NCBI RefSeq assembly: GCF_022095675.1
Contig: NZ_JAHYSG010000036.1
Location: 1 to 64,000, forward strand
Source of the DNA: Dactylosporangium sp. AC04546
GTDB taxonomy: Bacteria; Actinomycetota; Actinomycetes; Mycobacteriales; Micromonosporaceae
DNA: 64,000 nucleotides
Direction: 5' to 3'
The position numbers were made by a program, and so were the translations under genes. Each line of letters begins with the position of its first letter. Within the stretch, counting starts at the first letter, position 1. Of this stretch, positions 24,333-26,442 are shown piece by piece. The notes under the pieces are model-generated. The model made no database searches and was not told the origin of the DNA. It was given only the letters and a program-made list of their open reading frames with translations.

Positions 24333-24346
24333 GGCCGTCCGTGGCC
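24333..24346 (-). promoter_or_regulatory. Candidate CsrA-binding hairpin in the first flagellin leader
   Basis: On the RNA, GGCC pairs with GGCC around the six-base loop ACGGAC, which holds the CsrA core ANGGA. A second A/GGGA-type site overlaps the ribosome-binding site (AGGGAGGA). The hairpin ends 26 bases before the GTG. Confidence 0.55.
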
Positions 24347-24364
24347 TGAAGGCGTTCGCCGGTG

Positions 24365-24391
24365 TCATCGGCGGGGTCCGGCCGCGGTTGA
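24365..24391 (-). promoter_or_regulatory. Predicted FliA/WhiG-type promoter of the first flagellin gene
   Basis: Read leftward, TCAA (24391-24388), 15 bases, GCCGATGA (24372-24365), identical in form to the flgB promoter. It gives a leader of about 50 bases that includes the CsrA-type hairpin. Confidence 0.65.
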
Positions 24392-24426
24392 GGGTTCTCG
24401 CGCACCGGTTCCCCACCCGTGCGGCA

Positions 24427-24457
24427 GGGCACGGCGCCCTGGCTGGGTGCCGTGCCC
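24427..24457 (-). terminator. Hairpin after the second flagellin gene
   Basis: Nine-bp stem GGGCACGGC (24427-24435) with its complement (24449-24457), 39 bases or more beyond the stop of the flagellin gene that ends at 24496. It separates the two flagellin transcripts. Confidence 0.6.
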
Positions 24458-24495
24458 CGCGGTTGTCCTCGTCAGGTCGTGCCTTTCGGAGAGCC

Positions 24496-25356
24496 CTAGC
24501 GCAGCAGCGAGAGGACGTTCTGCGGCGCCTGGTTCGCCTGGGCCAGCATGCTCGTGCCGGCCTGGGTCAGGATCTGCGAGCGGGTGAACGACACCATCTC
24601 CGAGGCCATGTCGGTGTCACGGATCCGCGACTCCGACGCGGACAGGTTCTCAACGGCGACGTTGAGGTTGTTGATGGTGTGCTCGAACCGGTTCTGGTAC
24701 GCACCCAGCGTGGCCCGAGCGGTCGAAACACCCTTGATGGCGGTGTCGATCGCGGCGATGGCGGCCGTACCGGCGGAGCTGAGGTCCAGCGTGGCGACCC
24801 CGAGCCCGGCCGAGTCGAAACCGGTCACCGAGGAGCCGCTGCCGAAGGCGGCGGTCCCGAGGTCCACCGTGATCTGGTCCGCGCCGGCGGTGTTAGCGCC
24901 GACCTGGAAGGTGCCCATGTAGGCACCGTTGCCGACGTCGAGCAGCTTCTGCCCGCCGAAGGCCGTGGTGGTGGCGATCCGATCGAGCTCGGAGTTGAGC
25001 TGAGCGAACTCGGTCTGGGCCGCCGCCCGTGCATCGGAGTCCTGCGAACCCGTGCTCGCCGCCTGAACGGACAGGTCACGCATGCGCTGCAGGATGGAGT
25101 GCGTCTCGGTGAGCGCACCTTCAGCGGTCTGCACGACCGAGATGCCGTCCTGCGCGTTGCGCACCGCGACCTTCAGGCCGCCGATCTGGGAACGAAGACC
25201 CTCGCTGATCGAGAGGCCTGCTGCGTCGTCGGCCGCGCGGTTGATCCGGTACCCCGACGACAGCTTCTCCAGCGACTTGCCCATCTGGCTGTCCGTCACC
25301 GACAGGTTCCGGTAAGCGTTCTGGGCAGCGATGTTGTTGTTGATGCGAAGACCCAC
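24496..25356 (-). CDS. fliC: Flagellin (second of three)
   Basis: The 286-residue paralogue differs from the first mainly in the central segment (VGNGAYMGTFQVGANTAGADQ; STLDLTTSG replaced by ATLDLSSAG) while D0/D1 are nearly identical. Long runs of identical DNA suggest recent duplication or gene conversion. The start is GTG at 25356; AAGGAGGA lies 9 bases upstream. An in-frame start upstream would read through the leader and is rejected. Confidence 0.95.
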   Translation of the reverse strand: MGLRINNNIAAQNAYRNLSVTDSQMGKSLEKLSSGYRINRAADDAAGLSISEGLRSQIGGLKVAVRNAQDGISVVQTAEGALTETHSILQRMRDLSVQAASTGSQDSDARAAAQTEFAQLNSELDRIATTTAFGGQKLLDVGNGAYMGTFQVGANTAGADQITVDLGTAAFGSGSSVTGFDSAGLGVATLDLSSAGTAAIAAIDTAIKGVSTARATLGAYQNRFEHTINNLNVAVENLSASESRIRDTDMASEMVSFTRSQILTQAGTSMLAQANQAPQNVLSLLR

Positions 25357-25388
25357 GACGAATTCCTCCTTGATTGGGGTCCTTGGCC

Positions 25389-25424
25389 GGACCATCCGTG
25401 GTCCCGGTCGCTCTGCTCATCGGC
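25389..25424 (-). promoter_or_regulatory. Leader hairpin and -10 box of the second flagellin gene
   Basis: GCCGATGA lies at 25424-25417. Downstream in the leader, GGACC and GGTCC (25404-25389) pair around the loop ACGGAT, again the CsrA core ANGGA, with outer C/G pairs extending the stem. No TCAA -35 is seen; the four bases at the right distance are TTCG. Confidence 0.5.
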
Positions 25425-25461
25425 CCTGGGGGCCGGCACCGAAGGAAAACCGTTGGAAAAA

Positions 25462-25503
25462 CACGGCAGCGGCACCCCCTACGCCGGGGACGCCGCTGCC
25501 CGT
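25462..25503 (-). terminator. Hairpin after the third flagellin gene
   Basis: Stem GGCAGCGGC (25465-25473) with GCCGCTGCC (25492-25500) around an 18-base loop, just past the stop at 25512. Confidence 0.55.
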
Positions 25504-25511
25504 GGTGCGGT

Positions 25512-26372
25512 TCAGCGCAGTAGTGACAGGACGTTCTGCGGCGCCTGGTTGGCCTGCGCGAGCATGCTGGTGCCGGCCTGGGTCAGGATCTGGGAGCGGG
25601 TGAAGGACACCATCTCCTGGGCCATGTCGGTGTCCCGGATCCGGGACTCCGACGCGGACAGGTTCTCGATCGCGACGTTGAGGTTGTTGATGGTGTGCTC
25701 GAAGCGGTTCTGGTAGGCACCGAGCGTGGCCCGGGCGGTCGACACGCCCTTGATGGCCGTGTCGATCGCGTCGATCGCGGCGGTGCCCGAGGTGGTGAGG
25801 TCGAGGCTCGCGAGACCGAGGCCGCTCGCGTCGAACCCGGAGACACCGGCGGGGCTGCCGAACGCCGAGGAGTCCAGCTTGACCGCGATCTGGTCGGCCG
25901 AGGCCGTGTTGGCCCCGACCTGGAAGGTGCCCGTGTAGGCGCCACCGGTGACGTCGAGCAGCTTCTGCCCGCCGAACGAGGTGGTGGTCGCGATCCGGTT
26001 CAGCTCGGAGGTGAGCTGGGTGAACTCGGTCTGCGCCGCCGCGCGGGCGTCGGAGTCCTGCGAACCGGTGGAGGAGGCCTGGACGGACAGGTCGCGCATG
26101 CGCTGGAGGATCGAGTGCGTCTCGGTGAGCGCACCTTCAGCGGTCTGCACGACCGAGATGCCGTCCTGCGCGTTGCGGACGGCGACCTTGAGGCCACCGA
26201 TCTGCGAACGAAGACCCTCGGAGATCGACAGGCCGGCCGCGTCGTCGGCGGCGCGGTTGATCCGGTAACCCGAGGAGAGCTTCTCCAGCGACTTGCTCAT
26301 CTGGCTGTCCGTCACCGACAGGTTCCGGTAGGCGTTCTGAGCGGCGATGTTGTTGTTGATGCGAAGACCCAT
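25512..26372 (-). CDS. fliC: Flagellin (third of three)
   Basis: The 286-residue flagellin shares the D0/D1 ends of the other two and has the most distinct middle (KLDSSAFGSPAGVSGFDASGLGLASLDLT). Unlike the others it starts with ATG (26372), after AAGGAGGA at 9 bases, suggesting the highest translation rate. It lies nearest the sigma-factor gene. The three copies are transcribed in the same direction, each with its own promoter box, leader hairpin and terminator. Confidence 0.95.
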   Translation of the reverse strand: MGLRINNNIAAQNAYRNLSVTDSQMSKSLEKLSSGYRINRAADDAAGLSISEGLRSQIGGLKVAVRNAQDGISVVQTAEGALTETHSILQRMRDLSVQASSTGSQDSDARAAAQTEFTQLTSELNRIATTTSFGGQKLLDVTGGAYTGTFQVGANTASADQIAVKLDSSAFGSPAGVSGFDASGLGLASLDLTTSGTAAIDAIDTAIKGVSTARATLGAYQNRFEHTINNLNVAIENLSASESRIRDTDMAQEMVSFTRSQILTQAGTSMLAQANQAPQNVLSLLR

Positions 26373-26404
26373 GATGATTCCTCCTTGATGATGGGCCGTG
26401 CTGC

Positions 26405-26442
26405 GCGAGCCGTCCCTGGCTCGCTTCGCCGGAGTCATCGGC
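26405..26442 (-). promoter_or_regulatory. Leader hairpin and -10 box of the third flagellin gene
   Basis: GCCGATGA lies at 26442-26435. The leader forms a perfect 7-bp hairpin, GCGAGCC with GGCTCGC (26424-26405), whose six-base loop AGGGAC contains ANGGA. This is the strongest stem of the three leaders. The -35 position reads TTTC, a poor match. Confidence 0.55.

Follow-up and report, generated by a model that had tools for sequence, protein, structure and literature searches.

How is the translation of three neighbouring flagellin genes in Dactylosporangium sp. AC04546 controlled, and do CsrA and its antagonist FliW take part in it? We addressed this question in a stretch of 64,000 nucleotides (hereafter the window), which is contig 36 of the 13 Mb genome and carries the flagellin genes A, B, and C. 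The control of flagellin by CsrA and FliW has been worked out in Bacillus subtilis, Campylobacter jejuni, and Clostridioides difficile, and the switch is established for hag and flaA. An earlier note on this DNA had proposed the same control here from an ANGGA-loop hairpin in each flagellin leader. From the sequence comparisons described below, we infer with a probability of about 0.87 that the leaders are CsrA-controlled translational switches, in which CsrA would bind and repress flagellin and FliW would relieve the repression.

The hairpins reported in the note (hairpin 1, holding the putative binding site 1, BS1), with the loops AGGGAC, ACGGAT, and ACGGAC, were recovered at exactly the same positions (Table 1), as was a GCCGATGA box upstream of each. 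This promoter-like GCCGATGA box is probably the −10 element of a FliA-type promoter. The loop-closing pair is C-G in all three hairpins, and CANGGANG occupies an apical hexaloop, as in high-affinity CsrA/RsmE sites, in all three leaders (C-ANGGAN-G). The two strands of the 64 kb together hold five C-closed ANGGAN hexaloops with at least four uninterrupted pairs, three of which are those of the flagellin leaders. A hexaloop at 15695 lies inside a long open reading frame (ORF). The ANGGAN hairpin at 57607 (57600-57630), which overlaps the longest reading of a GGDEF-EAL gene, was rejected as a CsrA site, as it is terminator-like and a T run follows before that gene. No known Rfam family matched the flagellin leader element; Rfam 15 gave 0 matches at the gathering threshold over 20000-34000 and 0 at an expectation value (E) of up to 1 over 24200-26600. 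When the leaders were folded with 27 coding bases, the predicted probability of the closing pair of hairpin 1 was 1.0 for A, 0.61 for B, and 0.51 for C. A covariance model (see below) matched the leaders with hairpins B and C in their own genome with E of 1.9e-8 and 1.4e-4, respectively; these scores are not independent, since the model was built from leaders including those of the window.

Leaders for comparison came from two sources, genome-wide searches within the family and class and a set of 80 named loci, and the groups sampled included Micromonosporaceae, Nocardioidaceae, Geodermatophilaceae, Kineosporiaceae, Streptosporangiaceae, Thermomonosporaceae, and Cellulomonadaceae. A profile search yielded 226 unique matches, 172 of which were retained as flagellins (3 from the window, 103 from the named loci, and 66 from other loci). 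The remaining 54 were dropped; judged by eye, they comprise starts of FlgL, an internal match (L117), and two short ORFs resembling flagellin (L051 and L056); the leaders of the FlgL-like matches L096-L100 were likewise judged by eye. The two short ORFs (L051, position 1017; L056, position 855, minus strand) encode 113-118 amino acids, have an ANGGAN leader hairpin, and lie beside a normal flagellin. As controls, 614 starts of non-flagellin ORFs with a Shine-Dalgarno match were chosen mechanically from the same loci. A hairpin was counted when it had a hexaloop and at least four pairs with at most one mismatch.

Hairpin 1 was present with at least four pairs in 162 of the 172 class flagellin leaders, as against 300 of 17,200 shuffled sequences and 6 of the 614 control leaders. 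With at least five pairs, the counts were 146/172, 128/17,200, and 3/614, and with no mismatch at all the hairpin was still found in 121 (at least four pairs) and 90 (at least five pairs) of the 172. Among the 10 misses, inspection by eye showed that five (L157, L150, L144, L141, and L137) do have this hairpin, interrupted by a two-by-two internal loop. The flagellin of L137 groups with Blastococcus, while its record is titled Bacillus sp. AZ43 (unverified) and is probably mislabelled. The profile-based leader set supersedes early control matches (12 and 20 of 631, at least four pairs); 14 of the 16 early control matches listed with at least five pairs were flagellins missed by the first motif and 2 were Dactylosporangium fliD starts.

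The loop sequence bears on whether the hairpin is a generic stabiliser or attenuator of the mRNA in which GGA is incidental. Hairpins at the 5′ end commonly protect mRNAs. However, when 12 trinucleotides were tried in A.xxx. hexaloops with at least five pairs, GGA was found in 110 of the 124 leaders and each of the others in at most one, and none of the three window stems is followed by a T run on its 3′ side. This explanation is thus very improbable. The closing pair was C-G in 108 of the 110 GGA hairpins.

The stems were examined in 149 distinct 24-mers, each anchored on the ANGGA nearest to position −43 and chosen blind to the stems. Canonical pairs were found in 148, 147, 112, 141, 121, 125, and 111 rows at pairs 1-7, whereas the column compositions predicted 142, 108, 57, 85, 71, 71, and 60; pairing was therefore well above expectation at pairs 2-7. 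Sliding one side lowered the pairing at most pairs, and GC runs kept some registers high at single pairs. In a second alignment (A1), hand-thinned to 72 of 119 candidate leaders, both-side changes occurred at six of the seven pairs with no slid register near, and 94 cells had both sides changed with the pair kept, compared with 23.6 in shuffles. RNAalifold recovered the same stem in A1 unprompted. As the candidates had been pre-chosen for at least five pairs, the pair percentages of A1 lean upward. The comparison with related flagellin leaders that the earlier note had suggested therefore came out in its favour: the arms covary and the ANGGA loops stay fixed across the class. The third pair (A1 columns 8 and 19) was broken in 37 of the 149 rows, often as A-A or G-A, as against 1, 2, and 8 rows at pairs 1, 2, and 4, and pairs 5-7 frayed in 28, 24, and 38 rows. 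Most CsrA ligands selected in vitro have four or fewer contiguous pairs, according to the accessible part of a review (PMC7652899), and the third-pair mismatch may accordingly serve to keep GC-rich stems soft.

The same data bear on the idea that a transcription factor uses the inverted repeat, close to the FliA-type promoter, as its DNA operator. The repeat is palindromic, and its position relative to the promoter-like box is fairly regular: CCGA[TA] occurred upstream of the hairpin in 128/162 leaders, and in 89 of these it lay 22-24 nucleotides before the loop. Variable, compensating arms around a fixed unpaired middle are nevertheless the opposite of what an operator should show, and ANGGA recurs at the ribosome-binding site in 164/172 class flagellin leaders. 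An operator is thus scarcely credible, even less so than a generic stabiliser.

This recurrence forms the second putative site (BS2). All three ribosome-binding sites of the window fit WCANGGANGW, which we assume to be the CsrA consensus; the match had gone unremarked in the earlier note, which gave AGGAGGA as the ribosome-binding site of every leader. That sequence is correct for A and B, whereas C has GGGAGGA. The core CANGGANG of the CsrA consensus is stated in the accessible part of PMC4894983. Within the last 22 nucleotides before the start, CANGGA was found in 136/172 flagellin leaders against 19/614 other leaders, and the full WCANGGANGW in 96/172 against 6/614. The distance from GGA to GGA in the 110 hairpins of the first leader set was most often 28-29 nucleotides and ranged over 22-40, apart from a single value of 52.

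We also searched for other genes with the two sites, using a covariance model of the hairpin and the Shine-Dalgarno region with which 150 of the first-look candidates were scored per genome (150 of 8,939 in the own genome). Four matches at E of 1 or below were obtained in the own genome, namely the three flagellin leaders and the leader of a GH127 family gene (L231; G000:C41:58806-58866; E 1.7e-4), which combines CANGGA at the ribosome-binding site with an ACGGAC-loop hairpin of 10 pairs. The GH127 gene was rejected as a further CsrA target because the element is not conserved: its protein is 98% identical in D. sucinum, where the loop is ATCGAC and GGA is lost, and no hairpin was seen at this leader in D. 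vinaceum (of 9 loci in this comparison, L253, L254, L255, L256, and L257 were left out). Among 12 genomes of the family that gave no flagellin match, no model match was better than E 0.044.

These results also bear on a further possibility, that CsrA binds the leaders but mainly uses the flagellin mRNAs as a sponge, or stabilises them, rather than repressing them. Three flagellin mRNAs would make a large pool of sites, and C. jejuni flaA mRNA also titrates CsrA, according to the accessible part of PMC4894983. On the other hand, BS2 lies over the Shine-Dalgarno sequence in all three window leaders, and the last 22 nucleotides hold CANGGA in 136 of the 172 class leaders, which is the usual layout for repression. 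In addition, the model, which single-site targets would escape, revealed no conserved two-site leader outside the flagellins in the own genome. We consider a main outcome other than repression unlikely, though less so than an operator or a stabiliser.

The distribution of csrA follows that of flagellin. In the family, csrA was found in 32 of the 33 genomes whose flagellin-domain match exceeded the cut-off, the one lacking it being 82% complete, and in 0 of 88 others; in the class it was found in 50 of 55 with and 6 of 339 without the domain, and outside the class in 40 of 41 flagellin genomes. The family and class overlaps were drawn from match lists and then recounted. Among the 80 named loci, which are DNA stretches rather than whole genomes, fliW was present in 53, csrA in 49, and both in 46. 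In three genomes that lack csrA and are at least 90% complete (G387, G496, and G692), the hairpin is missing from the flagellin-domain genes; another such genome, G152, was not counted, since by eye its match resembles flgL located behind a different flagellar ORF. Separately, a divergent CsrA-like protein (E 6e-13 to 1e-16) was seen at L272-L276 in five genomes of one genus (G224, G422, G406, G469, and G484). Four of these have no flagellin match and G406 also has a flagellar csrA; at the two loci examined (L273 and L275), GATase_5 and AIRS genes of the purine-biosynthesis type lie near the divergent gene. Two genomes of one genus (L270 in G472 and L271 in G359) gave good csrA matches, with E of 9e-21 and 5e-20, and no flagellin match.

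The fixed loops, the covarying stems, the second site over the Shine-Dalgarno sequence, and the tracking of flagellin by csrA together support the CsrA/FliW control that had been proposed. In the model that we favour, a CsrA dimer would contact two GGA triplets of the same mRNA, one in the hairpin 1 hexaloop and one over the Shine-Dalgarno sequence, and this bridge between BS1 and BS2 would block the ribosome and prevent initiation. FliW, encoded in the flgK-flgL-fliW-csrA run and released as flagellin is exported, would remove CsrA, so that translation of flagellin would be limited to times when the protein can be assembled into a filament.

The leaders may contain a further structure. A conserved GACCC sits between hairpin 1 and the Shine-Dalgarno sequence and is complementary to GGGTC, a stretch that begins with the third base of the start codon, covers codon 2, and ends with the first base of codon 3 (helix 2; Table 1). 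With G-U pairs allowed, a five-base match to those coding bases was found in the leaders of 124/172 genes, compared with 24% in region shuffles, and in 116 and 63 in the registers one base to either side. With Watson-Crick pairs only, the count was 80/172, against 23 and 18 in the neighbouring registers. The match also varied with the second codon. Where nucleotides +3 to +7 read GAGTC (codon 2 AGT), GACTC was present in 18 of 19 leaders and GACCC in none, 17 being the safer count because the match in L172 lies in an arm of hairpin 1; where they read GGGTC (codon 2 GGT), GACCC was present in 63 of 103 and GACTC in 4. The GAGTC genes come mostly from Nocardioidaceae and a small group near Planosporangium. 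Other sequences at these positions were mostly without the helix (GGCAC 0/5, GGGCA 0/5, GTCGC 1/5, GGCCC 0/3, and GAGCC 0/3), with GGGTT (9/15) and GGCTC (3/3) as exceptions.

On a tree of 110 full-length flagellins, eight independent pairs differed in codon 2, and across them the leader differed in the same direction in 5.7 (mean), in the opposite direction in none, and not at all in 2.3. A sign test on these pairs gave a median p of 0.031 and values up to 0.0625; this support for covariation in helix 2 is moderate, as the tree places some families oddly. The predicted probability of helix 2 exceeded 0.5 in 88/162 leaders, compared with 141/162 for hairpin 1. When helix 2 was scored by longest complementarity, the effect against swapped genes was small (mean 5.85 vs 5.65; highest of 200 swaps, 5.81), and the exact-register tests are the stronger evidence. 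By sequence, helix 2 stands less firmly than the two sites, their conservation, the covariation of the stem, and the co-occurrence of csrA with flagellin. Our tentative proposal, at slightly less than even odds, is that many Actinomycetes have a two-hairpin RNA in which the coding sequence is structural and codon 2 (GGT or AGT) coevolves with the leader, with CsrA clamping hairpin 1 to a hairpin that hides the start codon. Helix 2 would place BS2 in the loop, mostly 21-23 nucleotides long, of this second hairpin and would reinforce the closed state and lock the start codon.

Beyond the class, 45 leaders from other classes of the phylum were searched over a wider stretch, to −110. A hexaloop hairpin with at least four pairs was found in 25 of them (144 of 4,500 shuffles) and one with at least five pairs in 18 (69 of 4,500), and CANGGA was present at the ribosome-binding site in 39. 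In a few of the others, such as L199 and L227, the loop seems by eye to be five bases long. These counts indicate that the leader element extends past the class in a looser form. As the arrangement of hairpin and ribosome-binding site recurs across flagellated actinobacteria, the flagellin checkpoint known from Bacillus and Campylobacter is probably also at work in this phylum. In eight genomes of other classes (G514, G530, G556, G567, G598, G638, G697, and G734), csrA precedes a flagellin gene on the same strand by a few hundred bases.

Several observations weigh against CsrA control of these leaders. Five of the 172 class leaders truly lack the site (L102:10047, L119:7701, L066, L074, and L060:1131), and all but L060:1131, which comes from a genome that is 63% complete and gave no csrA match, belong to genomes with csrA. 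A lost loop beside a retained csrA, which the earlier note had named as a finding that would count against it, is therefore confined to four of 172 leaders within the class. Outside the class, where 40 of 41 genomes have csrA, the hexaloop is missing from 20 of 45 leaders, so that the match there is looser. L102:10047 is the third flagellin of D. vinaceum, L119:7701 has the loop ACGGCT, and L074 is a divergent flagellin; the extra paralogs L102:10047, L119:7701, and L066, without the loop GGA in genomes with csrA, are candidates for flagellins that escape CsrA. The csrA-less genes that serve as negatives are themselves divergent flagellins. Conversely, two genomes without a csrA match have the hairpin: G143 (80% complete) has a strong one, and G488 (63% complete) has a 4-pair one in one of two genes. 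In the window, hairpin 1 appears in the single best fold for A, not for B or C, and on energy alone the predictions for B and C are moderate. The separation by the covariance model is not perfect, with 150 of several thousand candidates scored per genome; in eight flagellated relatives, two non-flagellin matches had E of 0.018 and 0.027, compared with 0.034 for one flagellin leader.

According to Pfam, the minus strand of the window carries the three flagellins, fliD, fliS, and a sigma-70 family ORF, which is presumably FliA, and the plus strand carries flgK, flgL, fliW, and csrA, so that csrA and fliW do lie in the same cluster as the flagellins, as had been claimed. Flagellin A is 99% identical to a flagellin of Dactylosporangium sucinum and 89-90% identical to full-length flagellins of D. 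vinaceum, D. roseum, D. siamense, and D. fulvum. The csrA gene is the sole CsrA-domain match in the genome. Its product (78 amino acids) has L4 and R44, which we assume to be the RNA-binding residues of CsrA. The protein aligns over residues 2-74 to the CsrA chain 5dmb_D, from an entry that also contains FliW, in keeping with retention of the C-terminal part to which FliW binds. The gene order flgK-flgL-fliW-csrA is also given for Actinosynnema pretiosum in the accessible part of PMC9019756.

Table 1 Features of the flagellin locus in the window.
Feature	Position	Strand	Description
GCCGATGA box, flagellin A	26435..26442	-	upstream of hairpin; probable −10 of FliA-type promoter
Hairpin 1 / BS1 (putative), flagellin A	26405..26424	-	GCGAGCC-AGGGAC-GGCTCGC, 7 pairs; loop AGGGAC 26417-26412
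Helix 2 (putative), flagellin A	26366..26397	-	GGCCCAT (26397-26391) with ATGGGTC (26372-26366), start codon; BS2 in loop; predicted probability 0.98
BS2 (putative), flagellin A	26379..26388	-	TCAAGGAGGA over Shine-Dalgarno sequence
Flagellin A	25512..26372	-	PF00669 + PF00700
GCCGATGA box, flagellin B	25417..25424	-	upstream of hairpin
Hairpin 1 / BS1 (putative), flagellin B	25389..25404	-	GGACC-ACGGAT-GGTCC, 5 pairs; loop ACGGAT 25399-25394
Helix 2 (putative), flagellin B	25350..25381	-	GACCC (25381-25377) with GGGTC (25354-25350); best-register probability 0.56
BS2 (putative), flagellin B	25364..25373	-	TCAAGGAGGA over Shine-Dalgarno sequence
Flagellin B	24496..25356	-	PF00669 + PF00700
GCCGATGA box, flagellin C	24365..24372	-	upstream of hairpin
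Hairpin 1 / BS1 (putative), flagellin C	24333..24346	-	GGCC-ACGGAC-GGCC, 4 pairs; loop ACGGAC 24342-24337
Helix 2 (putative), flagellin C	24301..24331	-	GACCC (24331-24327) with GGGTC (24305-24301); best-register probability 0.29, weak
BS2 (putative), flagellin C	24313..24322	-	TCAGGGAGGA over Shine-Dalgarno sequence
Flagellin C	23450..24307	-	PF00669 + PF00700
fliD	22028-23386	-	downstream of flagellins (fliD + fliS span 21614..23386)
fliS	21614-22000	-	downstream of flagellins
Sigma-70 family ORF	26589..28193	-	regions 2-4 at residues 266-479 of longest reading
flgK	28077-29480	+	FlgK_D1 domain; upstream of fliW and csrA
flgL	29498-30388	+	Flagellin_N/C match weaker than that of the flagellins and therefore assigned to flgL; precedes fliW and csrA
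fliW	30412..30828	+	CsrA antagonist; PF02623, E 1.5e-32; solved relatives 5dmb, 5dmd, 5jak
csrA	30912..31148	+	PF02599, E 6.1e-25

The circuit had been thought undescribed in organisms of this kind, which holds for part of it. CsrA control of flagellin was proposed in 2008 for Kineococcus radiotolerans from a BS2-like match at the Shine-Dalgarno sequence (PMC2587704); in the accessible part of that paper, the prediction concerns one gene with 9/12 bases at BS2, and the hairpin, covariation, FliW, and conservation are not among its points. A 2023 study of actinobacterial flagella included CsrA and FliW among its search queries, as far as its accessible part shows (PMC10746217). In the open-access literature, with subscription papers mostly outside the search, no account of the hairpin, of its covariation, or of the start-codon helix was found for actinobacteria. 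The leaders would thus provide a defined, conserved RNA element for CsrA-FliW control of flagellin in another phylum, some members of which are hyphal and swim only as spores. They offer covarying structures, natural paralogs that have lost the site, and a co-variation of leader and codon 2 that is directly testable.

Among the known systems, B. subtilis hag has BS1 at A51-A55 and BS2 at C75-G82, as given in the accessible part of PMC8523840. The leaders described here resemble it in having two putative CsrA sites, with BS2 over the Shine-Dalgarno sequence, and FliW as the presumed CsrA antagonist. They differ in belonging to another phylum and in that three flagellin genes each have their own leader. 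The GGA spacing, mostly 22-40 nucleotides in the class with a mode of 28-29, is about 24 in hag as reckoned from those coordinates, and pairing between the leader and the start codon, predicted here, has no mention for hag in the accessible text. For C. difficile fliC, the same part of PMC8523840 gives two CsrA sites predicted in the 5′ untranslated region and antagonism by FliW, as proposed here, in a Firmicute. In C. jejuni flaA, two ANGGA stem-loops 21 nucleotides apart are backed by mutants, gel shift, and footprint in the accessible part of PMC4894983, and the likeness to our leaders extends to a second stem-loop over the ribosome-binding site and to support from compensatory changes. Unlike in flaA, the GGA spacing here is mostly longer than 21 nucleotides, the second loop is mostly 21-23 nucleotides, and the 3′ arm of its closing helix is predicted to be formed by the start codon and codons 2-3. 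If helix 2 is real, these leaders would represent a form of the hag/flaA switch whose off-state is closed by the RNA itself and locked by CsrA.

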